From: Armatimonadota bacterium
GTDB taxonomy: Bacteria; Sysuimicrobiota; Sysuimicrobiia; Sysuimicrobiales; Sysuimicrobiaceae
Assembly: GCA_025059775.1 (NCBI GenBank)
Contig: JANXCW010000003.1
Location: 1-64,000, forward strand
DNA: 64,000 nt
Direction: 5' to 3'
Shown here piece by piece: positions 5,337-20,063 of this stretch; position 1 is the first letter of the stretch; each line of letters starts with the position of its first letter. A model generated the notes under the pieces. The model made no database searches and had not been told where the DNA came from. It saw only the letters and a list, made by a program, of their open reading frames with translations. Both the position numbers and the translations under genes were made by a program.

Positions 5337-5873
5337 ATGGCGGTGCTGGTGGATCCCACAGGAGGGACCGTGGAGATCACGCGGCGCATGGCCCCACGGG
5401 GCGGTCGGACCCTGCGGGGAGCACGGGTGGGGCTTGTGGACAACGGTAAGCGAAACGCGGACATCTTCCTCCAGGCCCTGGGGACCCTCCTCCGGGAGCG
5501 GTATGGGGTAAGCGAGGTGGTGCCGCGGCGTAAGCCGCACTTTGCGGTCCCTGTAAGCCCGGAGCTGGTGGAGGAGTTGAGCGCTCAGTGCGACTTCGTG
5601 ATCCCCGGGGTGGGGGACTGAGGGTCCTGTAGCGCGGCCAGTGTGGCCGACGGCATCCTGTTCGAGGAGCGGGGGATCCCGGCCGCCGCGGTGATCACGG
5701 ATGCCTTCCGGCGTACCGCGGATGCCATGGCCAGGACCCAGGGGTTGGAAGGGTATCCGTACGTGGCCATTCCGCACCCCATCAGCAGCCTCTCCCCGGA
5801 GGAGCTGAGGATGCGGGCGGAGCAGGCCCTTCCGGAAGTGGTGCGGCTGTTACAGGAGGAGGTGAAGGGATGA
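5337..5873 (+). CDS. UGSC family selenoprotein, stand-alone (TGA read as Sec at residue 95)
   Basis: The frame from ATG 5337 (after AGGGAGGTGAGGAGG) is open to 5873 except for TGA at 5619-5621. Reading TGA as selenocysteine gives 178 residues with GVGD-U-GSC-SAASVADGILF at the interruption. The UGSC (seleno)protein family is known to have U or C at this place within a GD[U/C]GSC motif, so the TGA falls on the expected redox residue. The N-terminal half carries the family features LRGARVGLVDNGKRNAD and VVPRRKPH, and the part after TGA continues the fold (IPAAAVITDAFRR, AIPHPIS). A hairpin follows at 5635-5649. The stop overlaps the partner gene start by four bases (ATGA). The reaction is unknown; the U-x-x-C arrangement suggests thiol/selenol redox chemistry. 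Without Sec insertion only a 94-residue fragment would form. Confidence 0.85.
5619..5649 (+). promoter_or_regulatory. UGA(Sec) codon and bacterial SECIS-like hairpin, copy 1
   Basis: TGA at 5619-5621 is followed by CGGCC (5635-5639), loop AGTGT (5640-5644) and GGCCG (5645-5649): five perfect pairs. The apical loop begins 18 bases after the codon and has G as its second base. Bacterial SECIS elements lie inside the coding region close behind UGA and present a G early in the apical loop to SelB, so distance and loop agree. No covariance test was possible. The stem could partly reflect GC-rich coding sequence. Confidence 0.6.
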
Positions 5874-6916
5874 GCCGGGGTGTGGTGGCGGAGCCGACCC
5901 GGGAGGCGGTGCGGGGCGCCCGGGAGGCCATTGAGTACTGCTACGAGCGGGGGTGGACGGACGGGTTGCCCGTGGTTCCCCCCGCAGAGGAGTTCGTAGA
6001 AGAGTTCCTGGCGCAGGTGGACCGGGACCCGGAGGAGGTGGTGTTTGCGCAGGAACACCTGGGCCGGAAGTGCACCGTGCGCCTTGCCGCAGCGAACGCG
6101 GTCATGGCGGGGTGCAGGCCGGAGTACTTCCCCGTGGTGCTGGCGATGCTGGAGGCGGTTCGGGACCTGCCGGTGAGCCGGGGGCTGTTCCAGAGCACCA
6201 CCGGGCAAGCGGTGCTGGTGGTGCTCAACGGTCCCATCCGGCAGGAGCTGGGGTTTAACGGTTCCGACAACGTCTTCAGCCCCGGGGACCGGGCCAACGC
6301 CACCGTGGGGCGAGCCCTGCGGCTGGTGATCATGAACGCCTTGGGGATCCGTCCCCATGCCTTCGATCAGAGCACCCAGGGTACTCCCGCCAAGTACAGC
6401 TTCTGCATCGCGGAGAACGAGGAGGAAAGCCCCTGGGAGCCCCTGCACGTGGAGCGGGGGTTTGGCAAGGAGGAGAGCACGGTGACGGTGGCTTGGGCAA
6501 GGGGGACCATGCCCGTAGAGCAGCGGGACTCCAAGCAGCCCGAACACATCCTCCTCAATATCGCGGACTCCATGTCCTACGGAGGGGGGTACTTTCCCTC
6601 ACCCCGGGGGCACGGGTCCATCGTGGTGATGGGGCCGGAGCATGCGCAGCTGATCGCCCAGGCGGGGTGGAGCAAGCGGCAGGTGCGGGAGTTCCTGTGG
6701 GAGCACTTCGGCCGTCGGGCGGGGGAGCTGCGGCGGCTGGCGAAGGATGGGGGTCTGGACCCGGATCTCAGCGATGCGGCCTTCGTGCGGTTCGCCTCCG
6801 GGCCGGAGGCCATCACCCTGGTGGTGGCGGGGGCTCGGAACGCGGGGGTGTCCACCGTCTGCCCCACCTTCGCCTGGCAAACGGTCACCCGCCGGATCCC
6901 GGCAAAGCGGAGCTGA
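5870..6916 (+). CDS. UGSC-partner protein (stand-alone version of the UGSC C-terminal domain)
   Basis: A 348-residue soluble protein with no signal peptide, starting at ATG 5870 inside the last codons of the UGSC gene, so translation is coupled. It is homologous to the C-terminal three quarters of the fused proteins at 16446 and 18146: shared GWTDGLPxVPP near the N-terminus, NAVMAG, VVLNGPIR/VVVNGPVR, SPGDRANA/SPGNMANA and NEEESPWEPLHVE. Thirty-four bases around that last motif are identical to the fused gene at 17575. I do not recognise a catalytic signature or known fold. The split/fused relationship says it works in a complex with the UGSC selenoprotein. The best description is an uncharacterised obligate partner of UGSC. 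Confidence 0.8.
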   Translation: MSRGVVAEPTREAVRGAREAIEYCYERGWTDGLPVVPPAEEFVEEFLAQVDRDPEEVVFAQEHLGRKCTVRLAAANAVMAGCRPEYFPVVLAMLEAVRDLPVSRGLFQSTTGQAVLVVLNGPIRQELGFNGSDNVFSPGDRANATVGRALRLVIMNALGIRPHAFDQSTQGTPAKYSFCIAENEEESPWEPLHVERGFGKEESTVTVAWARGTMPVEQRDSKQPEHILLNIADSMSYGGGYFPSPRGHGSIVVMGPEHAQLIAQAGWSKRQVREFLWEHFGRRAGELRRLAKDGGLDPDLSDAAFVRFASGPEAITLVVAGARNAGVSTVCPTFAWQTVTRRIPAKRS

Positions 6917-6972
6917 GGTGGATGCATCGGCTGCGCGGTGAAGGGAAATCTCTTCGATCAGGAGGTGAGCGG

Positions 6973-8508
6973 ATGCGCAGGCTGTGGGGACTGGCCGTGG
7001 GAGTTGCCCTGGCCGTGGTTTTGGGGGCCAGGGGGGTGCACATCGGGATCGCCGGGCCCGCGGAGCGGACCCAGCGGGGAGGGGTGCTGAGGGTAGCGGA
7101 TGAACCTCCGGGAGGGCCCTTCGGGGTCCCGTGGATCATGCCGGTGTTCGGCATCATCGCCGCCATGCCCGTCTACGAGACCCTGCTGTGGGTGGACGCG
7201 TACGGCCGGGTCTCACCGAGGCTTGCGGAGCGGTGGGAGGTGGCTCCGGACCGCAAAGCCCTCCTCCTCCGGCTGCGGCGCGGCGCCCAGTTCCACGACG
7301 GCACGGAGATGACCGCGGAGGCGGTGAAGTTCAGTCTGGAGGAGAGCATCCGGGTGCGGCGGCTACCCGCCTACATCAAATCCGTGGACGTACTGGACCG
7401 GTACACGGTGCGGGTGAACCTGGAGAAGTGGGACAACGGGGTGTTCCTGGCCCTGGGGGGATCCGCGGCCCTCATCGCTTCTCCTGCCACCATTCAGCGG
7501 TTGGGCCAGGAGCGGGCGCAGTGGCAGCCCGTGGGCACGGGTCCGTTCCGGATCGTGCGGTACGATCCGAACGCGTACGCGGACTACGTGCGATTCAACC
7601 AGTACTGGGATCAGGGGAAGCCCTACATGGATCGACTGGAGATGCGGTTCATCCGAGACGTGCAGACGTTAAAGGCAGCCTTGCTCGCGGGACAGCTGGA
7701 TGTGGCTGGATTCGGAGATCCACAGGTGATCGCGGAGCTGCGGGGTACAGGGAGGTTCCGGACCATCACGGGGCCTCCGGGAAGCGGCATCCTCATGATC
7801 GTTCCAGACAGCGCGAACGCGGACTCGCCGTTTGCGGACCGGCGGGTGCGGGAGGCGCTGGCGTATGCGGTGGACCGGGCGGCCATCGCACGGGCTCTGG
7901 GGTATGGGAACTGGGAGCCGTGGGACCAGATCGCGCATCCGGCAAGCCCCGCGGCCCTTCAGGACTACCGGGGGCCCACCTACAACCCCGCGCGGGCAAG
8001 GGAACTGTTGGCCCAGGCAGGCTATCCTAACGGCTTTGACAGCCGTCTGACGCCTGCTCCCTTCCTGCCTCGGGAGGTGGGCGTGGTGATTCAGCGGTAC
8101 CTTCGGGAAGTGGGAATCCGAACGGAGCTGGATACCCCGGAGATCGCGAGGTACGCGGAGTACCAGCGGAAGGGCTGGCGCGGTCTGCTCCTGCATTACT
8201 TTGGCTACTTCCCGAACTTCAACAACTATATTCGGTTCTACTTCACCAACTCTCCGGAAGGATTTGTGAGCATGAGGCGGCCCGAGGGACTGGACCGGTT
8301 GGTGGAGGACTCCGCCTCCACGCTCACGGTCCAGCGGCACAAAGTACAGCAGATGCATCGAGTGCTGCTCCAGGACCTCACCGTGATCCCCGTCTACCTC
8401 AGCATGCGGACGTACATCGCGCGCCCAGAAGTTCGGGACACGGGGCATCTCACCAAGGCCACCTGGCCCTACTGGGAGCCCGCGAAGGCATGGAAGGCCC
8501 GGCAGTAG
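6973..8508 (+). CDS. Family-5 (dipeptide/nickel type) ABC solute-binding protein, UGSC-linked
   Basis: A 511-residue periplasmic binding protein of the SBP_bac_5 fold. It has a signal peptide (about residues 1-28, no lipobox Cys), then RGGVLRVADEP, LAERWEVAPD, the family hallmark region LRLRRGAQFHDGTEMTAEAVKFSLE, and WQPVGTGPFRIVRYDPN. ATG 6973 lies seven bases after GGAGGTGAG. No cognate permease is adjacent, so it is an orphan binding protein that may use a transporter encoded elsewhere. It is the intact parent of the decayed copy at 138-1238. With the proteins at 15148 and 20091 it shares a G[VI]PW motif about 60 residues in, marking a subfamily that travels with UGSC genes. The ligand is unknown. 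Confidence 0.88.
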   Translation: MRRLWGLAVGVALAVVLGARGVHIGIAGPAERTQRGGVLRVADEPPGGPFGVPWIMPVFGIIAAMPVYETLLWVDAYGRVSPRLAERWEVAPDRKALLLRLRRGAQFHDGTEMTAEAVKFSLEESIRVRRLPAYIKSVDVLDRYTVRVNLEKWDNGVFLALGGSAALIASPATIQRLGQERAQWQPVGTGPFRIVRYDPNAYADYVRFNQYWDQGKPYMDRLEMRFIRDVQTLKAALLAGQLDVAGFGDPQVIAELRGTGRFRTITGPPGSGILMIVPDSANADSPFADRRVREALAYAVDRAAIARALGYGNWEPWDQIAHPASPAALQDYRGPTYNPARARELLAQAGYPNGFDSRLTPAPFLPREVGVVIQRYLREVGIRTELDTPEIARYAEYQRKGWRGLLLHYFGYFPNFNNYIRFYFTNSPEGFVSMRRPEGLDRLVEDSASTLTVQRHKVQQMHRVLLQDLTVIPVYLSMRTYIARPEVRDTGHLTKATWPYWEPAKAWKARQ

Positions 8509-8542
8509 GACAGGAGCGGGGAAGTGAGGGAGGACGAACCGC

Positions 8543-9919
8543 ATGATGGCCCATCCGGGAGCGCGGCCATCGGAGCGCCCCTACATGGTGGAGGAGGCCC
8601 GCCGGATACCCGTCTTTGGGGAGTTCGACGTGGTGGTGCTGGGTGGAGGCCCCGCGGGCATCGCCGCCGCCACGGCCGCGGGTCGGTGTGGTTGCTCCGT
8701 GGTGCTCGCGGAGCGGTACGGATTTCTCGGCGGGATGGGGACCGCAGCAGGGGTTACTACCTTCGCGGGCCTCCACGCCAATGTCTACGGGGAGCACCGG
8801 CAGGTGGTGCACGGGGTGGTGGACGATCTCCTGGCCCGGATGGAGCGCCTGGGGGGGCTCAACGCCCCGCATCTCTCCCTGGGCGGCCGTATCATGGCCC
8901 AGGCCTACGATACGGCCGCGTACAAGGTCGCCGCGGACGACCTCGTGCTGAGCGCGGGCGTGAAACTCCTCTTCCACACGTTGGGTGTTGGGGCGTTGAT
9001 GACCCATGAGCGGGAGATCGCGGCCCTGCTGGTGGAGACCAAGTCCGGACGTTTCGCCATCCGCGGACGGGTGTTCATCGATTGCTCCGGCGATGCGGAC
9101 CTCGCCGCGTGGGCGGGAGTACCGTACGAGAAGGGAGACGGCCGGGGGAAACTCCTGTATCCCACCACCATGTTCCGGATCAACGGGGTGGATCCAGAGC
9201 GGGCGGGAAGGGCCTGGGAGCTGCTTCCTCAGATCATGGAGGAGGCAGAGCGGGAGGGAAGAAGGTTCCCGCGGCGCGCTCCCATCCTGCGCCCCCAGCG
9301 GAACCCTCTGGAGTGGCGCGCCAACGTAACCCAGATCCGGCTCCCGGACGGCAGGGCGGTGGACGGGACGGATGTGGAGCAGCTGACGTATGGAGAGGTG
9401 GAGGGGCGCAGGCAGGTGTGGGCGTTCTTCGAGTTCCTCCGGGAGCGCCTTCCGGGATTTGAGAACGCTTACATCGTGGACATTGCGCCTCAGTTGGGGA
9501 TTCGGGAAACGCGGCGCATCGTGGGGGAGTACCAGCTGACGGAGGAGGATGTAGTGGGCTGCGCGAGTTTCGAGGACACCATCGGGGTAAACGGGTGGCC
9601 CGTGGAAGAACACGTGCAGGGAGATGTGGTGATCCGTTGGCCGCCCATCCCCGACTGCCGGGGCTTTCACCATCTGCCCTACCGCATCCTGCTCCCACAG
9701 AAGGTGGATAACCTCCTGGTGGCGGGGCGGTGCGCCTCCATGACCCACGGGGGGCAGTCCTCCGCCCGAGTATCCGGACCTTGCTTCGTCATGGGGCAGG
9801 CGGCAGGAACCGCCGCCGCCTTGGCCCTGCAGCTCGGTATCCCCGTGCGCCACCTGCCCGTAGCACGGCTCCAGGCGCTCCTGGAGCGGGATGGCGTCTA
9901 CCTGGGGCGGGACCTCTAA
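8543..9919 (+). CDS. FAD-dependent oxidoreductase (FAD_oxidored family)
   Basis: A 458-residue cytoplasmic flavoprotein. An N-terminal Rossmann motif VVVLGGGPAGIAAATAAGR (about residues 29-47) binds the FAD ADP moiety. It is followed by the GFLGGMGTAAGV segment typical of the FAD_oxidored group and, near the C-terminus, a second FAD contact VDNLLVAGRCASMTHGGQSS. Members of this group include FAD-linked oxidoreductases of unknown substrate often next to ABC binding proteins. ATG 8543 follows GGGAGGA. It sits 34 bases behind the UGSC-linked binding protein and is probably in its operon, so it may oxidise or reduce the imported compound. Confidence 0.85.
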   Translation: MMAHPGARPSERPYMVEEARRIPVFGEFDVVVLGGGPAGIAAATAAGRCGCSVVLAERYGFLGGMGTAAGVTTFAGLHANVYGEHRQVVHGVVDDLLARMERLGGLNAPHLSLGGRIMAQAYDTAAYKVAADDLVLSAGVKLLFHTLGVGALMTHEREIAALLVETKSGRFAIRGRVFIDCSGDADLAAWAGVPYEKGDGRGKLLYPTTMFRINGVDPERAGRAWELLPQIMEEAEREGRRFPRRAPILRPQRNPLEWRANVTQIRLPDGRAVDGTDVEQLTYGEVEGRRQVWAFFEFLRERLPGFENAYIVDIAPQLGIRETRRIVGEYQLTEEDVVGCASFEDTIGVNGWPVEEHVQGDVVIRWPPIPDCRGFHHLPYRILLPQKVDNLLVAGRCASMTHGGQSSARVSGPCFVMGQAAGTAAALALQLGIPVRHLPVARLQALLERDGVYLGRDL

Positions 9920-9940
9920 GCGGCTGCGGAAGGGGGAGCG

Positions 9941-9969
9941 CCTCCCGGCCCGCGTTGCGGGCTGGGAGG
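9941..9969 (+). terminator. Strong GC hairpin between the oxidoreductase and acyl-CoA ligase genes
   Basis: CCTCCCGGCCCGC (9941-9953), loop GTT, then GCGGGCTGGGAGG (9957-9969): thirteen pairs with a single G-U. It lies 22 bases after the upstream stop, where an operon boundary is expected. There is no T-run after it, so termination would be imperfect or factor-assisted. It separates the UGSC module from the beta-oxidation genes. Confidence 0.6.
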
Positions 9970-10012
9970 GAGGGGGGGTAAACTGGGGATCCGAGAACGG
10001 AGGTGAGTGGAA

Positions 10013-11641
10013 ATGCAGATGGTGTCGGAGTTACGCGCGAGCTTGGCGTACCCCTTGACCCTCTCCCGGGTGCTGGAGCGGATGATCCGGTACTGGGGAC
10101 ACGTGGATGTGGTGACGCGGCGGCCGGACCGCTCCTTGCACCGAACCACCTATGTGGAGCTGTACCGGCGCGCACACGCCCTGGCCCGTGCCCTGACCCG
10201 CCTGGGCATTCGGCCTGGGGATCGCGTGGCCACCCTGTGCTGGAACCACTCCATGCACATGGAGTGCTACCTCGGCGTCCCCATCACGGGAGCCATCCTG
10301 CACACCCTCAACCTGCGTCTCCACCCCAGCGATCTCGCGTACATCGTGAACCACGCGGAGGACCGCTTCCTCATCGTGGACGATGTCCTGCTCCCGTTAT
10401 TCGAGCAGTTTAAGCAGGACGTGCGGTTGGAGCGGATCTTCGTGGTTCCCTTCTCGGGGCAGCCCGCTCCCGCCCCCTACGACAGCTACGAGGAGCTCAT
10501 CCAGGGGCCCTTTGAACCCTTCCCGTACCCGGACATCCCGGAGGACAGTCCCGCCATGATGTGCTACACCTCCGGGACCACGGGGCGTCCGAAGGGGGCC
10601 ATGTACTCCCACAAAGCCATGGTGCTGGCGGCTATGGCCACCATGCTGGCCGATACCTTCGCGATTTCCCGGCGGGACACCATCCTGGCGGTGGTGCCCA
10701 TGTTCCACGTAGCTGGCTGGGTCCTGCCCTTCTCCGCGCCGCTCGCGGGCGCACGCCTGCTGCTACCGGGCCCGCATCTGGATCCCGAGAGCGTCCTGGA
10801 GCTCATCTCCTCCGAAGGGGCCACCTTCTCCGGAGGCGTACCCACCGTCTGGCTGGGGATCCTGGACGTCCTGGAGCGCAACCCGGAGAGGTATCCCCTC
10901 CGTCGGGAGCTGCGGGTGGCGGTGGGCGGTAGCGCGCCTCCGGAATCCCTCCTGAGGCGCATGAAGCGTGCCGGCATCCGACTGATCCACGGATGGGGGA
11001 TGACGGAGGTGCTCATCGGGATCCAGAGCCACCTCAAGCCCCATATGGAGAGCTGGCCCGAGGAACAGCAGATCGCTATGCAGCTCAAGCAGGGCATGCC
11101 CGTACCTCTTCTGGAGGCCCGCATTATGGGGCCCGAAGGGGAGGTTCCGCCGGACGATCGGACCATGGGGGAGCTGCAGGTCCGGGGGCCGTGGGTGGCG
11201 GGGAGCTACTTCCGCGGGGAAGCCCCAGATGCCTGGACCTCAGACGGCTGGTTCCGCACGGGGGACGTGGCCGTGTGGGATGCGGAGGGGTTCATCAAGA
11301 TCGTGGACCGTACCAAGGACCTCATTAAATCCGGGGGCGAGTGGATCAGCTCCGTGGACCTCGAGAACGCCCTCATGACCCATCCCAAGGTCAAGGAGGC
11401 CACGGTGATCGCGGTTCCCCACCCCAAGTGGATGGAGCGACCCCTGGCGGTGGTAGTACCCCGGGAAGGCGAGACGGTGACGGAGGAGGAGCTGCGGGAG
11501 TACCTGCGGCCCAAGTTCGCGAAGTGGTGGCTGCCCGATGCCTTCGTGTTTGCCACGGAAATCCCGAAGACCTCCACGGGGAAGCTGGCGAAGCTGGTGC
11601 TACGGGAACGGTTCAAGGACTGGAAGTGGCCGGAATCCTGA
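10013..11641 (+). CDS. AMP-dependent acyl-CoA synthetase (medium/long-chain fatty acid type)
   Basis: A 542-residue adenylating enzyme that converts a carboxylic acid, ATP and CoA to acyl-CoA. It has the P-loop-like YTSGTTGRPKGAMYSH (about residue 183), GWGMTE (about 327), the hinge DRTKDLIKSGGEWISSVDLE (about 432-451) and the catalytic C-terminal lysine in KTSTGKL (about 521). The length and the GEWISS hinge fit the AlkK/FadD-like subgroup. ATG 10013 is nine bases after GGAGG; an upstream GTG at 10007 would sit too close. It heads a beta-oxidation set with the genes at 11657 and 13970. Confidence 0.92.
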   Translation: MQMVSELRASLAYPLTLSRVLERMIRYWGHVDVVTRRPDRSLHRTTYVELYRRAHALARALTRLGIRPGDRVATLCWNHSMHMECYLGVPITGAILHTLNLRLHPSDLAYIVNHAEDRFLIVDDVLLPLFEQFKQDVRLERIFVVPFSGQPAPAPYDSYEELIQGPFEPFPYPDIPEDSPAMMCYTSGTTGRPKGAMYSHKAMVLAAMATMLADTFAISRRDTILAVVPMFHVAGWVLPFSAPLAGARLLLPGPHLDPESVLELISSEGATFSGGVPTVWLGILDVLERNPERYPLRRELRVAVGGSAPPESLLRRMKRAGIRLIHGWGMTEVLIGIQSHLKPHMESWPEEQQIAMQLKQGMPVPLLEARIMGPEGEVPPDDRTMGELQVRGPWVAGSYFRGEAPDAWTSDGWFRTGDVAVWDAEGFIKIVDRTKDLIKSGGEWISSVDLENALMTHPKVKEATVIAVPHPKWMERPLAVVVPREGETVTEEELREYLRPKFAKWWLPDAFVFATEIPKTSTGKLAKLVLRERFKDWKWPES

Positions 11642-11656
11642 CCGAAGGAGGCGGCG

Positions 11657-13960
11657 ATGGGCATCCGCAAGGTAGGCGTCGTGGGGGCAGGGGCGATGGG
11701 GAGCAGCATCGCGGCCCTGGTAGCATCCGCGGGGATCCCGGTGATCCTCCTGGACCTGCCCTCGGAGGGGGATCCCGACGCCCTGGCCAAGCGGGGGGTG
11801 GAGCGGGCCCTGAAGTCCCGGGCATTCTACGATCCGGAAGCCGTCCGGTTGATCACCGTGGGCAACGTACACGATCACCTGCACCGGTTGGGGGACTGTG
11901 ACTGGGTGGTGGAGGCGGTAGTGGAGGAGGTGGAGCCCAAACGGTCCCTCTTCGCACAGCTGGATTCCGTACTCCCTCCCACCGTCGTGGTTTCCTCCAA
12001 CACCTCCACCATCCCTATGCGGATTCTGGTGGAGGGAAGGTCAGAGTCCTTCCGACGCCGTTTCCTCGGCACCCACTTCTTCAATCCCCCTCGTGCCCTG
12101 CTGCTCCTGGAGCTGGTGCCCGGTCCGGACACGGACCCGGAGTTGCTCCGGCGTATGCAGAGGTTCGCAGAACGCGTGCTGGGTCGCCGGGTGATCGTGG
12201 CGAAGGATCGCCCGGGGTTCGTGGCGAACCGGATCGGTATCTACGGCCTCGTGCAGGCCATCCGGATCACGGAGGAGGAAGGACTGACCCTGGAGGAGGT
12301 GGACCGGCTTACGGGGCCGTTTCTGGGACGACCCCGCTCCGCCACCTACCGCACCGTAGACCTCACCGGCCTCGACATCCTGGTGCTCGGTACCCGCTCC
12401 CTCCAGGAGAACACCGGGGACGACTACCACCTGCCGGATTGGGTGCACCACCTGTACCGGGAAGGCCGGCTGGGGGACAAGGCCGGGAGCGGATTCTTCC
12501 GTCGAGAGGGCGACACCCTGCTCGCCTGGGACTACTCCACGAGGACCTACCGGCCCCAGCGCCCTCCCGAGATCCCGGGTCTGGAGAGGGCGGAGGCCGT
12601 CCCCTTCCCGGATCGGCTACGGGCTGCCATGGAGCTTCCGGATCGGTATGGGCGGTTCGTGCGCAAGCTCCTCCTCCGCACCTGGCACTTCGCCTTCCTC
12701 CGGGCATCGGAGGTGGCCCATGACCTCGTCTCCGTGGACCGGGCCCTGGAGTGGGGATTCGGCTGGGAACTGGGTCCGTTCCGGCAGATGGACGCCGTGG
12801 GATCGAGCCTCGTCGCGCAGGGGTTTGCGGAGCTGGGCCTCGAGGTTCCCGACCTCCTGACCCGGGCTACCCAAGGGTTCTACGCGAACGGTGCCTATCT
12901 GGATTTCTCCGGGGAATACCGGCCTGTCCCAGAGCGGGAGGGAGTGCTCAGCCTGCGACAGACGCCCACCGTGCTGACCCAGGCTCCGGAGGCCCGCCTG
13001 GCGGACCTCGGAGACGGAATTCTGGGAGTGGAGCTGCGCGGCCCTTCGGGAGCCCTGACGCCTCAGGCGCTGGAGGTGTTGCGCCGGGCCGTGGAGGAGG
13101 CAGAGGTAGGGAGGTGGGAGGGAATCGTCATCGGTACGGAGGACCTCCGTCGGCTTCCCGCGGACTGGGATTACCGGTGGATGCTTGATCGGATCCGTGG
13201 AGGAGAGGAGGAATCCGTCCAGGCTTGGGTAGAGCAGGTTCAGGAGGCATGCATACGGCTCCGGGAGTGCACGGTTCCCGTGGTGATCTGCGCAGCAGGC
13301 CAGGTGGCGGGGCCGGGCGTGGCGTTCCTGCTGGCCGCGGACCGGGTGGTGGCGCATGCGGATCTTCAGGTGGCCCTCGTGGAGTACGCACTGGGGTTGG
13401 TGCCCGTGGGGGTTCCCACCTTCCTGCTCCGGCGGTTCACAGAGGACCTCCTCCCCTACGGGGTGGCGGGAGAGCTCAAGCCGGAGGCAGGAGCAGACCT
13501 CCACGAGGCCACGCACCGGGTATTTCGCCTCCTCCTTTCGGCTTCTACCACCCGCAGTGCGCAGGAAGCGCAACGTCTAGGACTGCTGTGTCCCTGCGAC
13601 CTCATCACCCTCAGCCGGGACCGGATGCTGGCGCAGGCGAAGGCAGTAGCGCTCGCCCTGGCTCCCAGCTATGTCCCGCCGGTCCCCGGTCCCCTGTGGG
13701 GGATGGGGGACGAGACCCTCGGGAACCTGCGCTACGCCGCGTGGGCGCGGTGGGAGGCCCGGCAGGCCACGGAGTGGGATCGGGAGGTGGCCTACGCACT
13801 CGCGGACCTCCTCTCCGGGGGCGAGGGCCCCCCGCGGTGGGCGGAGGAGCAGGAGTTCCTCCAGGTGGAAGTGAGCACCTTCCTGCGGCTGCTTCGTTCT
13901 CCCAGGACCCAGGAACGGCTGGTGCACTACCTGGAGACCGGAAGGTTCCTCCGGAACTGA
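11657..13960 (+). CDS. 3-hydroxyacyl-CoA dehydrogenase / enoyl-CoA hydratase-domain protein (FadB/FadN-like)
   Basis: A 767-residue beta-oxidation enzyme with the dehydrogenase first and a crotonase-like domain last, the order seen in Bacillus FadN and not the FadB order. The NAD site VGVVGAGAMGSSIAALVA is at residues 6-23; the HAD catalytic region GTHFFNPPRALLLLELVPG is at about 139-157; a helical dimerisation domain follows (about 185-400). The C-terminal part (about 430-650) has a crotonase fold (VVICAAGQVAGPGVAFLLAAD), but the second catalytic Glu was not confirmed. It oxidises 3-hydroxyacyl-CoA to 3-ketoacyl-CoA. It starts 16 bases after the ligase and ends 10 bases before the thiolase. 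Confidence 0.9.
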   Translation: MGIRKVGVVGAGAMGSSIAALVASAGIPVILLDLPSEGDPDALAKRGVERALKSRAFYDPEAVRLITVGNVHDHLHRLGDCDWVVEAVVEEVEPKRSLFAQLDSVLPPTVVVSSNTSTIPMRILVEGRSESFRRRFLGTHFFNPPRALLLLELVPGPDTDPELLRRMQRFAERVLGRRVIVAKDRPGFVANRIGIYGLVQAIRITEEEGLTLEEVDRLTGPFLGRPRSATYRTVDLTGLDILVLGTRSLQENTGDDYHLPDWVHHLYREGRLGDKAGSGFFRREGDTLLAWDYSTRTYRPQRPPEIPGLERAEAVPFPDRLRAAMELPDRYGRFVRKLLLRTWHFAFLRASEVAHDLVSVDRALEWGFGWELGPFRQMDAVGSSLVAQGFAELGLEVPDLLTRATQGFYANGAYLDFSGEYRPVPEREGVLSLRQTPTVLTQAPEARLADLGDGILGVELRGPSGALTPQALEVLRRAVEEAEVGRWEGIVIGTEDLRRLPADWDYRWMLDRIRGGEEESVQAWVEQVQEACIRLRECTVPVVICAAGQVAGPGVAFLLAADRVVAHADLQVALVEYALGLVPVGVPTFLLRRFTEDLLPYGVAGELKPEAGADLHEATHRVFRLLLSASTTRSAQEAQRLGLLCPCDLITLSRDRMLAQAKAVALALAPSYVPPVPGPLWGMGDETLGNLRYAAWARWEARQATEWDREVAYALADLLSGGEGPPRWAEEQEFLQVEVSTFLRLLRSPRTQERLVHYLETGRFLRN

Positions 13961-13969
13961 GGTGGGATC

Positions 13970-15130
13970 ATGCGAGAAGCGGTGATCGTGAGCGCGGTGC
14001 GGACGGCGGTGGCTCGGGGCAAAAAGGACGGATCCCTGGCCGCCCTGCACCCCGTGGACCTTTCCGCGGTGGTGATGCGGGCGGCGGTGGACCGCATCGA
14101 TCTTGATCCCGCGCACCTTGATGACGTCGTCTGGGGGTGCGCGTTCCCGGAGTCCAGCCAGGGGCAGAACGTGGCGCGGTTGGGGCTGCTGCGGACTGGG
14201 TTCCCCGTAGAGGTCACGGGCATGACCCTGAACCGGTTCTGCTCCAGCGGGCTGCAGGCCATCGCGCTTGCGGCCCAGGCCATCCTCTCCGGCATGGCGG
14301 AAGCGGTCCTGGCCGGGGGCGTGGACATGATGAGCCGCATCCCCGCCTCCGGCTACCATCCCCGGTACCATCCCGGGATGACAGAGACCTACATCGCCAT
14401 GGGTCTGACCGCGGAGCGGGTGGCGGAACGGTGGGGGATCTCCCGGGAGGAGCAGGATCGGTGGGCCTACCGGAGCCACCGTCTTGCCACGGAGGCGTGG
14501 GCGGCTGGGAAGTTCGCAGGGCAGATCGTACCCGTTCGGGTCCGGCGTCGGAACCCGAAGGGGGAGCGGGAGGAGTTTGACTTCGTCCGGGACGAGACGG
14601 TACGCCCGGATACGAGCCTGGAGAAGCTGGCGGCTCTCCGGCCTGCCTTCAAGGAGGGGGGGACGGTAACCGCGGGGAACTCCAGCCCCTTCTCGGACGG
14701 TTCTGCCGCGGTGGTGGTGATGAGTCGATCGAAGGCGGAGGACCTGGGGTTGCGGCCCCTGGCGCGATTCGTGAGCTTTGCCACAGGAGGGGTGGAGCCG
14801 GACGTCATGGGAGTGGGACCGGTCCGGGCGGTTCCCAAGGCCCTACGGCTTGCGGGCCTGCGGATGGAGGACCTGCGGCTCATCGAATTCAACGAGGCCT
14901 TCGCAGCTCAGGTGCTTGCGGTGCTCAAGGAACTGGAGATGCCCGTAGAGAAGGTGAACGTCAACGGGGGGGCTATCGCCCTAGGCCACCCCCTCGGCGC
15001 CACGGGCGCCAAGCTCACCACCCAGCTCATCTATGAGCTGCGGGCCCGAGGAGGCGGGTTCGGCATGGTCACCATGTGCGTCGGTGGAGGAATGGGGGCA
15101 GCGGGCATCTTTGAGGTGTATCCGAGCTGA
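13970..15130 (+). CDS. fadA: Acetyl-CoA C-acyltransferase (thiolase)
   Basis: A 386-residue thiolase that splits 3-ketoacyl-CoA with CoA to acetyl-CoA and a shortened acyl-CoA. The acyl-accepting Cys is in [16 protein letters not shown] (about residue 91), the active-site His in [15 protein letters not shown] (about 342), and the second Cys in [17 protein letters not shown] (about 373). The length is typical. It is the last of the three-gene beta-oxidation operon with 10013 and 11657. An acyl-CoA dehydrogenase is not adjacent; the nearest is at 29683. Confidence 0.93.
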
Positions 15131-15147
15131 GGGGGCGAGGGAAGCGT

Positions 15148-16432
15148 ATGAGAGAGAGGGGAGGACGGGCGGTTCTGAGGATGGTGGGGGTGGTGTCGCT
15201 GGTGGGCCTGTTGGCCTGGACCACCCGTGCCGCGGAGGTCCCTGGGACCTCCACAAAGAGCTACGGAGGTGTGCTGCGGAAGATCTACGCCATCCCTCGT
15301 AGCCCCGTGGGGGTCCCCTGGGAGATCGTGGGCATCAGCGTGGACGCGGCCACCCCCGCGTTAGAGGCCTTGGTGCGGGTGGACAAGCACGGAAGGGTCT
15401 TCCCTTGGCTCGCGGAACGGTGGACGGTGTTGCCGGATCAGAACACGATCCTCTTCCGGCTGCGCCGGGGAGTGAAGTTCCACGATGGAACCGATTTCCA
15501 TGCACAAGCGGCGAAATGGAACCTCGACCGGCAGATCGAAGCCCGGACGATCCCCGTGACCTCGGTGGAGGTGGCGGACGAGTACACGATCCGGGTGCGG
15601 CTTGCGGAGTACAACAACATCTGGCCGACCATCTTTGGAGGGAGTCGCGCACTCATGATCTCCCCCACTGCCTTTACCCGCAACGGAGTGGAGTGGGCTC
15701 GATGGAACCCGGTAGGGACCGGACCCTTCCAGATCGTACGGTATGAGCGGGACGTGCAGGCCATTTACAGGCGGTTCGAGAGATACTGGCAAGCGGGGAA
15801 ACCGTATCTGGAGGGTGTGGAATACCTGTTCCTCGTGAACCCTGAGACGCGAAAGATGGCCTTCCTTTCCGGGCAGGCCAACTTCCTAGGGGCTACGTTT
15901 CAGGCAGCAGCGGAGTTGGCCCGGGAGTCCAGGGACCGCTACAACGGGGGTTCCGGACACGGCTGATCGGCACGGATGCCGCTGAACGGGAGCAGCTGGT
16001 GGCTGTGCAACGGTATCTGCAGCAGGTGGGGATCCAAGCGGAAATCGAACAGGTCCCCAGCACGCGGTATCAGGAGTACATCAACGGGGGGGTGGGAGGG
16101 ACTTGCTCTACCAGCCCTTCGCCCGCTTCCCCACCGTGAACGAGTTCGTGCGCCAGTACTGGTTCCTCAACCAGCGGTTCGCCAGCTTCGAGCGGCCAGA
16201 GGGGTTCGAGGGGGTATGGCGTCAATCGTTGAAGACCCCGGTCCCAAGTCCTCAGTTCGCGCAGCGGCTGAACCAGATGCTGATCGAGAAGGATCACCTG
16301 ATCCCTGTCTTTTACTACAAGACGATCATCGTGACCACCAAGGAGGTCAGGGATACGGGATACTTCCGGTGGTACACCACGGCCTGGTGGTCTCCAGAAG
16401 AAGCCTGGATGGCTCGAAGAGAAGAGCGCTAG
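15148..16432 (+). pseudogene. Decayed family-5 solute-binding protein gene (internal loss plus frameshifts)
   Basis: ATG 15148 begins a good signal peptide and a binding-protein N-terminal half with YGGVLRKIYAI, GVPWEIVGIS, RLRRGVKFHDGT and WNPVGTGPFQIVRYE, but the frame stops at 15966. Family residues continue in two other frames: LIGTDAAEREQLVAVQRYLQ from 15963 in frame 3, then LLYQPFARFPTVNEFVRQYW from about 16100 in frame 2, to a stop at 16432. The whole is about 80 codons too short for the roughly 510-residue family, so an internal piece is also missing. At least two frame changes plus a deletion make this a pseudogene. It lies 13 bases before a UGSC gene, mirroring the decayed copy at 138. 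Confidence 0.85.
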
Positions 16433-16445
16433 AGGAGGTGGAGGC

Positions 16446-18125
16446 ATGGCGGATCGGTACGAGGTGCTGAGCCCTGTGGGGGAGGCAGAGATTCCGGAGC
16501 CGTGGCGGATCGCACCCCGGCTGGACCGGTTGGAGGGTCGGGTGGTGGGGCTGTTTGAGAACAACAAGCGGGCGGCGCCCAGGATCCTGGAGGCGGTGGA
16601 ACGGGAGTTGAGAGCGCGTGTACCGGGGGTTCGATTCAGCCGCTTCCGGCACCCGCACAACCGGGAGCTGGTGGGGGAGGAGTTCGAGGCCTTCCGGCGG
16701 TGGGTGGAGGGAGTGGATGCGGTGGTGGGGGCGGTAGGGGACTGAGGGTCGTGCACCAAGTACTTGGTGTTCAACCTCGTGGAGGTTGAAAAACTCGGGA
16801 AGCCTGTTGCCGCCCTGTGCAACGTGGGGTTTGCACGGGATGCGCGGTCGGCGGCGATGGTGAAGGGGTGCCCGGCGCTGCGGGTGGTGCTGGAGCGGGT
16901 GCCGTGCGAGGCAACGGATGGGGAGTCCATCGCGCGGGGGGTGGCGGAGGTCATCGGGGAGGTGGTGCAGGCGCTGACGGAGCCTTTGCGGGAAGAGGAG
17001 TGGGAGGAGGCGCTCGCGCGGGCAGCGGCGTGGCAGCCTGGGGACGCCCGTGGGGTGGTGTACCGGGGGGGTTACGAGGAGGTGAACCGGTACTTCTACC
17101 GGATGGGTTGGACGGATGGGCTGCCGATCGTACCGCCCACCCCGCGGGCGGTGGAGGAGATGCTGCGGGGCACGGATCTGGATCCGGACCACGTGGTGGC
17201 GAGTTTGCCGCCGCGGGGGGGCAAGGCCACGGTGGAGAAGATCGCCATCAACGCGGTGATGGCGGGGGCGCTGCCCACGCATCTACCGGTGATCATCGCG
17301 GCGGTGGAGGCCCTGGCGGACCCGGATGCGTGGTACGGGACGTATCAGGTGAGCACGGGGTCGTGGGCGCCGTTCGTGGTGGTGAACGGACCGGTGCGGC
17401 GGGACATAGGGTTGAACTGCGGGAGCGGGGCGTTGAGCCCCGGGAACATGGCCAATGCGGCCATCGGTCGGGCGATCCGTTTGGTGGACCGGAACATCGG
17501 GGGGGTGCGGCCCGGGATCGAGGACATGGGGGTCTTTGGGAATCCTGGGAAGTACACCCTGGTGCTGGGGGAGAACGAGGAGGAAAGCCCCTGGGAGCCC
17601 CTGCACGTAGAACAGGGCTTGGAGCGGGAGGAGAGTGCGGTGAGCGTGTTCTTCCCGAACACCTATGTGCAGGCGGTGGCCATGGGGACGGATCCGGAGA
17701 GCCTGGTGCTGACCCTGGCCCGGAATGTACCGGCGGGCAAGCGGAACGCGCTGACGGCCATGCTGGTGATTCCGGACCACGCACGGATCCTAGCCCAGGC
17801 GGGGTGGTCCAAGCAGGAGGTGGTGCGCCGGGTGGTGGAGGCCGCCCGCATCCCCCGATACCGATCGCCGTACATACCTCCGGAACGGGCGGAGGGCCTG
17901 AGCCCGAAGGAGCTGCCGCGGAGGGAGGAGGACTGGATGCCCGCATGGATGGACCCGGCCCAGATCCGACTGGTGGTGACCGGGGGACCCGGCAGCTTCA
18001 TGGCCCTGTGGATCGGTTCCGGGCTCATGCCCGCCCGGTGGGTGACCAAACGCGTGCGACTGCCGAAGGCGTGGGGACGGATGGTAGTCCGCTACCGGGG
18101 AATGGTGCCCAGGTACGCGGGCTGA
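16446..18125 (+). CDS. UGSC selenoprotein fused to its partner domain, copy A (Sec at residue 100)
   Basis: From ATG 16446 (after GAGGAGGTGGAGG) the frame is open to 18125 except for TGA at 16743-16745. Read as Sec, this is a 559-residue protein. Residues 1-200 are the UGSC domain (LSPVGEAEIPEP, LDRLEGRVVGLFENNK, AVGD-U-GSC-TKYLVFNL, KPVAALCNVGF). Residues about 205-559 are the partner domain (GWTDGLPIVPP, NAVMAGALPTHLPVI, NEEESPWEPLHVE). The TGA falls on the residue expected in the UGSC family, and homology runs unbroken across it. A 16-base perfect palindrome follows it. If TGA were a stop, translation would end at 99 residues and the remaining 459 codons would have no ribosome site. It is cytoplasmic with no signal peptide; the reaction is unknown. 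Confidence 0.85.
16641..17473 (+). repeat. Mosaic near-identical repeat, upstream copy
   Basis: Three blocks match the tandem paralog almost base for base: 16641-16799 with 18329-18487 (1 mismatch in 159, spanning the UGA and hairpin), 17133-17315 with 18815-18997 (2 mismatches in 183), and 17343-17473 with 19025-19155 (2 in 131). The sequence between and outside these blocks is clearly diverged. This patchwork points to gene conversion between tandem copies, not to a recent whole-gene duplication. Confidence 0.85.
16743..16769 (+). promoter_or_regulatory. UGA(Sec) codon and SECIS-like hairpin, copy A
   Basis: TGA 16743-16745 is followed by CACCAA (16754-16759), loop GTAC (16760-16763) and TTGGTG (16764-16769), a perfect six-pair stem, with a further G-U possible outside. 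The loop begins 14 bases after the codon with G first, in keeping with bacterial SECIS elements read by SelB. The whole 16-base palindrome is conserved exactly in copy B. Its sequence is unrelated to the copy 1 hairpin at 5635 although position and shape agree. Confidence 0.65.
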
Positions 18126-18145
18126 TGGCGTATGGAGAGGGAGTA

Positions 18146-19807
18146 ATGTACGAGGTCCTGAGCCCCGTGGGGGAAGCCGAGCTTCCGAAGCCGCAACCCA
18201 TCGCTCCCCGCCTCGATCGCCTGGAAGGACGGGTGATCGGGCTATTCGTGAACTCGAAGCCCGTGGCTCCGGTTCTCCTGGAACGGGTGGAGGAGCTGCT
18301 ACGGGAGCGGGTAGGTGCCCGCACGGAGCGCTTCCGGCACCCGCACAACCGGGAGCTGGTAGGGGAGGAGTTCGAGGCCTTCCGGCGGTGGGTGGAGGGA
18401 GTGGATGCGGTGGTGGGGGCGGTAGGGGACTGAGGGTCGTGCACCAAGTACTTGGTGTTCAACCTCGTGGAGGTTGAAAAACTCGGCAAACCCGCGGTTG
18501 CTCTCTGCAACCTGGGGTTCGTGCAGGACGCCAAGGCCTCTGCCGCGGTGCGCGGCGTGCCGGGCCTCCGCGTTGTTTCGGAGGAGATCCCCAGCGAGTG
18601 CACCAGCCGCGAGGAGATCCGGCGCGGCGTGGATCGCGTCTTCGAGCATGTTCTGTGGGCCCTTCAGGAGCCGCCCACGGACCAGGAGCTGTTCCCGGAG
18701 ACGTGGGACCTTCTGGAAGGAGGGGCGGTGGATGGCGTCGTGTACCGAGGTACCCTGGAGGAGGTGAACCGGTACTTCTACCGGCGTGGCTGGACGGATG
18801 GGTTTCCCATCCTCCCGCCCACCCCGCGGGCGGTGGAGGAGATGCTGCGGGGCACGGATTTGGATCCGGACCACGTGGTGGCGAGTTTGCCGCCGCGGGG
18901 GGGCAAGGCCACGGTGGAGAAGATCGCCGTCAACGCGGTGATGGCGGGGGCGCTGCCCACGCATCTACCGGTGATCATCGCGGCGGTGGAGGCCCTACTG
19001 GATCCCCGTACTTGGTTTGGCACCTATCAGGTGAGCACGGGGTCGTGGGCGCCGTTCGTGGTGGTGAACGGGCCGGTGCGGCGGGACATAGGGTTGAACT
19101 GCGGGAGCGGGGCGTTGAGCCCCGGGAACATGGCCAATGCGGCCATCGGCCGGGCCCTCTCCCTGGCGATCCGGAATATCGGGGGAGCACGGCCCGGGAT
19201 CGAGGACATGGGGGTATTGGGGAATCCCGGGAAGTGGTCCATGGTGGTAGGGGAGTGGGAGGAGCAGAGCCCCTGGCCTCCCCTGCACGTGGACGAGGGA
19301 CTTGCTGCTGAGCAGAGCGCGGTGAGCGTGATCTTTATGAACACCTTCGTGCAGATCCTAGGCTATGGCAGCGAACCGGAGGATCTCGTCCGTAGCTTCA
19401 CCTACAACGTTCCGCCTACGAAGAAGGACGCCACCACCGCGCTTCTGCTTCCCCCCCATCTCGCCCGGATCCTGGCGGAAAGCGGTTGGCAGAAACAGGA
19501 CGTGGTGGACTTCGTCTGGCGCTACACGCAGGTCCCGGCCTACCAACACCCGGACTGGGTGCGGGCCCGCCGGTTGGAGGAACGCCATACCCGCATCGGG
19601 ACCGTGGAGGCGCACGTGGCGGTCCAGGTGCTGAGCCGGAGGGAGGCCATCCGGGTGGTGGTGATGGGAGGGCCGGGAAACGTGATGGGGGTTGTTCTGG
19701 GAGGAGGAATCATGCCGGCCCAGTGGGTCACCCGTCCGGTGCAGCTTCCCAGAAGCTGGGGGAGGTTGGTAACGAGGTATCGGGGTGTTGTTCCAAGAAT
19801 CCGTTAG
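18146..19807 (+). CDS. UGSC selenoprotein fused to its partner domain, copy B (Sec at residue 96)
   Basis: A tandem paralog of the preceding gene: 553 residues with TGA at 18431-18433 read as Sec in AVGD-U-GSC-TKYLVFNL. ATG 18146 lies five bases after GGAGAGG and aligns with the start of copy A; an ATG at 18125 overlapping the previous stop is the alternative. The partner domain begins at about residue 200 (GWTDGFPILPPTPRAVEEML). The last third differs most from copy A (EWEEQSPWPPLHVDEGL instead of NEEESPWEPLHVE), suggesting altered substrate or partner. It is followed after 16 bases by the SelW-like gene. The function is unknown; redox chemistry is inferred from the U-x-x-C motif. Confidence 0.85.
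18329..19155 (+). repeat. Mosaic near-identical repeat, downstream copy
   Basis: Counterpart of 16641-17473, with matching blocks 18329-18487, 18815-18997 and 19025-19155. The offset changes from 1688 to 1682 between the first and second blocks, so small indels lie in the diverged part between them. Confidence 0.85.
18431..18457 (+). promoter_or_regulatory. UGA(Sec) codon and SECIS-like hairpin, copy B
   Basis: TGA 18431-18433, then CACCAA (18442-18447), loop GTAC (18448-18451) and TTGGTG (18452-18457), identical in sequence and spacing to copy A. Because the surrounding block is also nearly identical, the conservation alone does not prove selection on the hairpin. Confidence 0.65.
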
Positions 19808-19823
19808 CGGATAGGAGGGACCC

Positions 19824-20063
19824 ATGACCATCAGCATCGTGTACTGCAGCGAGTGCAACTACCTTCCTCAGGCCCTGGAGGTCGCCCGAGGAATCCTCGA
19901 GCGGATGGCGGACGAGATCGACGAGCTCGTGCTGGTTCCCGCCGCGGGTGGTGCCTTCGAGGTGCGCAGGGATGGCGAGCTCGTGTTCGACATGATGGTC
20001 TCCGGTGGGTTTCCAAACGTGGAAGAACTCGTCCGGAGGCTGAGCGGGAAGATCCGTTCCTAG
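19824..20063 (+). CDS. SelT/SelW/SelH (Rdx) family protein, cysteine form
   Basis: A 79-residue thioredoxin-like protein with VYCSECNYLPQALEVARGIL at residues 6-25, the Rdx C-x-x-C that is C-x-x-U in selenoprotein W. Here both codons are TGC, so this member does not need Sec. The following LVLVPAAGGAFEVRRDGELVFD and the terminal GGFPNVEELVRRLSGKI match the small SelW-like fold (G-x-FEV-x-v-n-g and the F/P helix). ATG 19824 follows GGAGGGACC. It sits between two UGSC genes and a binding protein, so it is a candidate redox partner for the UGSC proteins. That partnership is inference. Confidence 0.85.
   Translation: MTISIVYCSECNYLPQALEVARGILERMADEIDELVLVPAAGGAFEVRRDGELVFDMMVSGGFPNVEELVRRLSGKIRS

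Follow-up and report, generated by a model that had tools for sequence, protein, structure and literature searches.

Three UGSC selenoproteins and their U1 partner in an Armatimonadota genome, with a possible role in thiol-driven substrate reduction

Introduction

What does a reading frame encode that is open and homologous on both sides of a single TGA codon, and what might its product do? The question arises three times within one 64,000-nucleotide stretch of DNA from an Armatimonadota bacterium, which is analyzed here and called the window. A sequence-only reading had placed TGA codons at 5619, 16743 and 18431, each in the context G-D-TGA-G-S-C, and had assigned the three genes to the UGSC selenoproteins. 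UGSC is a known and common selenoprotein family (PMC2398784, PMC13188914) that is functionally unexplained. The Global Ocean Sampling study described a UGSC/Unknown_1 fusion, in which the second, conserved domain is of unknown function (PMC2398784), and the UAG-encoded UGSC selenoproteins of the Geodermatophilaceae are referred to as published in a passage of PMC5330540 that cites Mukai et al. 2016. The family itself is known already, as are the fusion and the UAG variant. The wider module described below, and its link to GrdB and PrdB, were not found in the open-licence papers searched.

Results

The three TGA positions proved exact. Gene 1 (5337–5873, + strand, 178 aa) has its in-frame TGA at 5619–5621 and its real stop, also TGA, at 5871–5873. 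Gene 2 (16446–18125, + strand, 559 aa) is interrupted at 16743–16745 and ends with TGA at 18123–18125, and gene 3 (18125–19807, + strand, 560 aa, with an alternative start possible at ATG 18146) is interrupted at 18431–18433. With TGA read as a residue, the translations P0001 (5337–5870), P0002 (16446–18122) and P0003 (18125–19804) carry it as U95, U100 and U103, respectively. Each contains this single internal TGA, in the context G-D-U-G-S-C, and no further internal stop. Plain ORF calling breaks all three genes at the TGA and restarts at GTG 5643, TTG 16764 and TTG 18452; these are the fragments with false starts that had been foreseen.

All three proteins match the UGSC family PF24696, with its U/C-G-S-C motif, over the whole domain, at 206.7, 107.1 and 112.6 bits for genes 1, 2 and 3 against a curated cut-off of 25 bits. 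The equivalog NF041046 (cut-off 125 bits) is passed by gene 1 alone, at 167.6 bits; genes 2 and 3 reach 76 and 84 bits, and therefore form a divergent UGSC branch. They are also two-domain fusions: after the UGSC part the frame runs on into a domain of ∼350 residues that we call U1. This is 37–39% identical to a stand-alone U1 gene (5870–6916, + strand, 348 aa) that overlaps the end of gene 1 by ATGA and matches no Pfam or NCBIfam family. Both the fusions and the recurrent partners of the family had been missed in the sequence-only reading. The Global Ocean Sampling fusion is probably the same arrangement as genes 2 and 3, a likeness drawn from its description rather than an alignment.

The same region of the window contains genes for an FAD-dependent oxidoreductase (PF12831; 8543–9919, + strand), ABC transporters, an acyl-CoA ligase, a 3-hydroxyacyl-CoA dehydrogenase/hydratase and a thiolase. 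Directly 3′ of gene 3 lies a small Rdx/SelW-like protein (19824–20063, + strand) with the all-cysteine motif C-S-E-C, which is a candidate reductant. Just upstream of gene 2 (15148–16432) a family-5 substrate-binding protein is apparently split across more than one frame; this appears to be a frameshift, arising from decay or assembly error. The window itself begins with the tail of a further U1 gene (1–111), 89% identical to 5870–6916. This is one of four contig ends that fall inside U1 genes, the others being the start of C18, the start of C28 and the end of C29 (loci L026, L025 and L024). Repeated U1 copies thus break the assembly, so that the true number and order of UGSC–U1 pairs may differ.

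Can the organism decode these genes? Machinery for selenocysteine had been expected elsewhere in the genome (2.35 Mb, 99% complete), and all of its components were located. Within 5 kb on contig C4 there are selB (C4:85028-86869), an adjoining selA-like ORF, assigned by reading the ORF next to selB and not from a profile search, and tRNA-Sec with the anticodon UCA. The selD gene, at C8:32726, carries a TGA of its own. The genome contains six UGSC genes, every one with exactly one TGA. Nine further UGSC genes, from five other genomes of the phylum, all follow the same pattern; five of them belong to a second genome of the genus and four to genomes elsewhere in the phylum. The clustering of three such genes had been called unusual; three do lie within the window, but the genome has six copies and the family was already known to be a common one.

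The comparison was extended with 80 loci collected using a U1 profile, on which the locus counts below are based. A UGSC frame lies within 1 kb of U1 in 77 of them. The column occupied by TGA in the window is TGA, TAG or a cysteine codon (TGC/TGT) in these homologues, always within an open frame, and none of them ends there. The TGA had therefore been correctly placed on the U/C column of the family. In a tree of 68 UGSC domains the selenocysteine/cysteine state switches ∼5 times. TAG is found in four loci (L053, L079, L090 and L100), from Geodermatophilus and Blastococcus, genomes that contain a tRNA with a CUA anticodon that fits the tRNA-Sec model; the same tRNA is labelled Pyl by ARAGORN. 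These UAG-type proteins belong to the same family, while the organism of the window uses UGA and tRNA-Sec(UCA) instead. Such a distribution is hard to reconcile with TGA codons that are sequencing errors, the marks of decayed genes, or reassigned genome-wide to another amino acid. Beyond the breaking of the genes by ORF callers nothing favours an explanation of this kind. The TGA is common to all six genomic copies and to copies in other phyla, it occurs once per gene in a genome that encodes the selenocysteine machinery, and homologues have cysteine, or UAG together with a matching CUA tRNA-Sec. Genes 1 and 2 moreover stop at ordinary TGA codons (5871 and 18123). We regard chance, error, decay or reassignment as effectively excluded.

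The sequence following each TGA provides a further element of decoding. The bSECIS model has a stem of 4–16 bp, a loop of 3–9 nt with G in one of its first two places, and a distance of 16–37 nt from the UGA (PMC13188914). Gene 1 has a hairpin that conforms (5635–5649, + strand; CGGCCA-GUG-UGGCCG), with 6 bp and a GUG loop beginning 19 nt past the TGA. Genes 2 and 3 are laid out differently, each with two hairpins (16753–16789 and 18441–18477, + strand), of which the second fits the model, with 8 bp and a GUG loop 33 nt from the TGA; in gene 2 it spans 16771–16789 and reads UCAACCUC-GUG-GAGGUUGA. The hairpin DNA of gene 3 is identical to that of gene 2. It lies in a nearly identical block extending from about −90 to +50 around the codon, beyond which the similarity of the two genes drops sharply over most of the neighbouring sequence. 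The block looks like the product of gene conversion, and the hairpins of the two genes are therefore not independent evidence. Counted from the TGA, gene 2 shares its first 54 nt without a single difference with its ortholog from a second species of the genus, whereas identity in most of the 30-nt windows to either side is 0.77–0.97.

Six standard base pairs enclosing a loop that starts with GU, at +17 to +31 from the first base of the selenocysteine codon, are present in 43 of 50 genes with a selenocysteine codon. Six pairs occur at this place in just 1 of 27 cysteine genes, and the GU loop in none of the 27. The Fisher probability for the difference (p = 4e-13) is too strong, since related sequences were counted as independent. 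Folding energy over the first 48 nt does not separate the two groups (p = 0.75); only the hairpin at its fixed place does so. The stem also varies by paired changes, from CGGCCA/UGGCCG to CCGCCA/UGGCGG in Pseudomonadota and CGUGCA/UGCACG in genes of the C18 type, and these argue for the same reading as a SECIS hairpin. Taken with the machinery and the codon column, this makes it almost certain, as far as gene sequences can tell, that the three genes are genuine UGSC selenoproteins, whose decoding relies on SelB, on tRNA-Sec and on the hairpin just past each UGA. On a Chloroflexota contig a second, divergent UGSC gene (L034:9002, − strand) has TGA in the context G-G-U-G-S-C and lacks the hairpin normally present at +17 to +31.

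UGSC belongs to a larger module, in which U1, its neighbour in those 77 loci, is the constant companion. In 41 of the 80 a small NifU-like CxxC protein is encoded within 300 bp of U1 or UGSC, and on an Arthrobacter plasmid it is fused to UGSC; the match to NifU is weak, and is reached only by this fused copy. Thioredoxin genes are found in some loci. Plasmids have the orders trxB-trxA-U1-UGSC (Arthrobacter), U1-UGSC-trxB (Roseovarius) and trxB upstream of U1 (Variovorax). Of the 80 genome loci, only 4 have trxB within 8 kb. No trxA, trxB or NifU-like gene is seen in the 64-kb window. A PF12831 oxidoreductase like that at 8543–9919 occurs in 25 of the 80 loci. Further neighbours, several of them named by reading the sequences, are ABC, TRAP or tricarboxylate transporters, CoA ligases and transferases, aconitase X, IlvD, and IclR or LysR regulators. 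Two UGSC–U1 fusions near aconitase X (L153:7176-8900 and L156:7218-8903) have a motif degraded to GDMGTS and form a branch in which the redox residue is gone.

The AlphaFold2 model of UGSC (pLDDT 93.5) has an alternating order of strands and helices that is Rossmann- or flavodoxin-like, with selenocysteine predicted at the start of a helix. Among its best 50 matches in the PDB, lumazine synthase, flavodoxin-like and Rossmann proteins predominate; thioredoxin is absent from these 50, and the model does not have the thioredoxin topology. A thioredoxin-like fold was suggested for UGSC in 2008 (PMC2398784); the strand–helix order of the model and its best 50 matches rule against it. The U1 model is of similar quality (pLDDT 91.2), and the fold search gave no convincing match, only weak ones to class I fumarase (the best) and cyanuric acid hydrolase. 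With query TM-scores of 0.27 or below, these were dropped as clues to the function of U1. Sequence searches of the PDB gave nothing relevant. A MAFFT alignment that mixed fused and single-domain proteins was misaligned and was not used.

Is there a known system that UGSC resembles? GrdB, GrdH and GrdF of the glycine, betaine and sarcosine reductases, together with PrdB, form the closest comparison. The GrdB genes of related genomes have the U-G-S/T-C motif as UGSC does, here as A-T-U-G-S-C-N-R-C, and there is weak colinear similarity to GrdB and PrdB across the C-terminal ∼90–110 residues, most of it within and just past the selenocysteine motif. Comparison of the profiles with hhalign aligns UGSC with GrdB at E = 1.9e-5, selenocysteine upon selenocysteine. 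When the four motif columns are masked the likeness is weaker, with a score of 30.1, where none of 60 shuffles exceeded 21.7. Among 43 UGSC members, 18 match TIGR01917, 15 PrdB (TIGR04483, weakly, best E = 0.0015) and 10 GrdF. Of the genes in the window, gene 1 has no match to TIGR01918, TIGR01917 or TIGR04483, and gene 3 is far below the cut-offs (13.2 versus 65.45 bits for TIGR01918, 12 versus 602.2 for TIGR01917). An hmmsearch with the motif-masked UGSC profile does not rank GrdB above decoys, and common descent with GrdB is for that reason not proven, although remote homology is likely. In some UGSC loci the thioredoxin-linked clusters are a further likeness to the GrdB and PrdB systems.

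There are also clear differences. UGSC proteins lack the first ∼330 residues of GrdB and fall far below its family cut-offs, and no partners of the GrdA, GrdC or GrdE type were seen. Nor was a pyruvoyl partner: U1 matches no GrdE or PrdA family, has no similarity to the known partner subunits and does not align with GrdB. A profile search found no GrdB in the genome of the window. Relatives in the phylum encode TGA-containing selenoproteins of the GrdB type (L109-L126; 13 of 43 genomes above the cut-off), with none in the window's own taxonomic family.

Discussion

Our analysis leads us to favour, by a narrow margin, an explanation that takes selenoprotein identity together with a selenocysteine-dependent, thiol-driven substrate reductase as a whole. 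For the function as such, UGSC acting with U1, to which it is fused in genes 2 and 3, is most likely a substrate reductase, an assignment that we make tentatively.

A scheme for such chemistry exists in D-proline reductase, where the selenocysteine of PrdB is proposed to attack the α-carbon of the bound substrate to give a selenoether, which a cysteine resolves to a selenide-sulphide that is then reduced by a partner (PMC3091704). The UGSC–U1 proteins have U-x-x-C and a constant partner that could serve for binding; in some clusters thiol reductants are encoded close by. By analogy we infer that U1 would hold a substrate, and that selenocysteine, at the helix start of the Rossmann-like α/β domain, would attack an activated carbon in it. 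The cysteine of U-x-x-C would resolve the product to give a selenide-sulphide, and a small thiol protein would re-reduce this. Thioredoxin or the NifU-like CxxC protein could take that part, and in the window perhaps the SelW-like Rdx. Each of the several copies sits in a transporter and CoA-pathway cluster of its own, and they would differ in the substrates on which they act.

Two other functions have to be weighed against substrate reduction. The U-x-x-C motif and the thioredoxin and Rdx neighbours would also suit selenoprotein peroxidases, or general thiol-disulphide oxidoreductases that guard redox-sensitive catabolic enzymes with U1 as scaffold or target, and a title in the reference list of PMC3091704 reports peroxidase activity for GrdB. 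Yet the near-obligate pairing with U1, the fusion, and the spread of copies across distinct transporter and CoA clusters are better suited to a substrate enzyme, and the UGSC model is unlike the thioredoxin fold; we consider a protective role of this kind unlikely. Alternatively UGSC–U1 could be a lyase, hydratase or transferase, in which selenocysteine or cysteine is a nucleophile or metal ligand and there is no net reduction. Aconitase X and the dehydratase IlvD are frequent neighbours, the best, if very weak, fold match of U1 is class I fumarase, and in Sporomusa and Vibrio the fusions encoded next to aconitase X retain neither U nor C. It follows that the fold can serve in at least one way that does not need the redox residue, and that the chemistry is not family-wide. 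However, U1 fold matches at such TM-scores say little, and the thiol-reductase neighbours and selenocysteine itself favour redox chemistry, so that non-reductive catalysis is likewise improbable.

Returning to the substrate reductase, a broader generalization is possible though doubtful. UGSC–U1, in some loci with the NifU-like protein, might be a distinct class of selenocysteine-dependent substrate reductases driven by thioredoxin or Rdx, distantly related to glycine and proline reductase but without the pyruvoyl subunit. Such enzymes would serve in the catabolic clusters of a wide range of bacteria and, with cysteine in place of selenocysteine, of haloarchaea.

A genome in which all six UGSC genes require selenocysteine illustrates the damage that standard ORF calling does to operons of this kind. 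The functional blank of the UGSC family may be turned into a testable type of reaction by the constant partner U1, by the NifU-like protein as a third member, by the clusters linked to thioredoxin and by the likeness to GrdB and PrdB.
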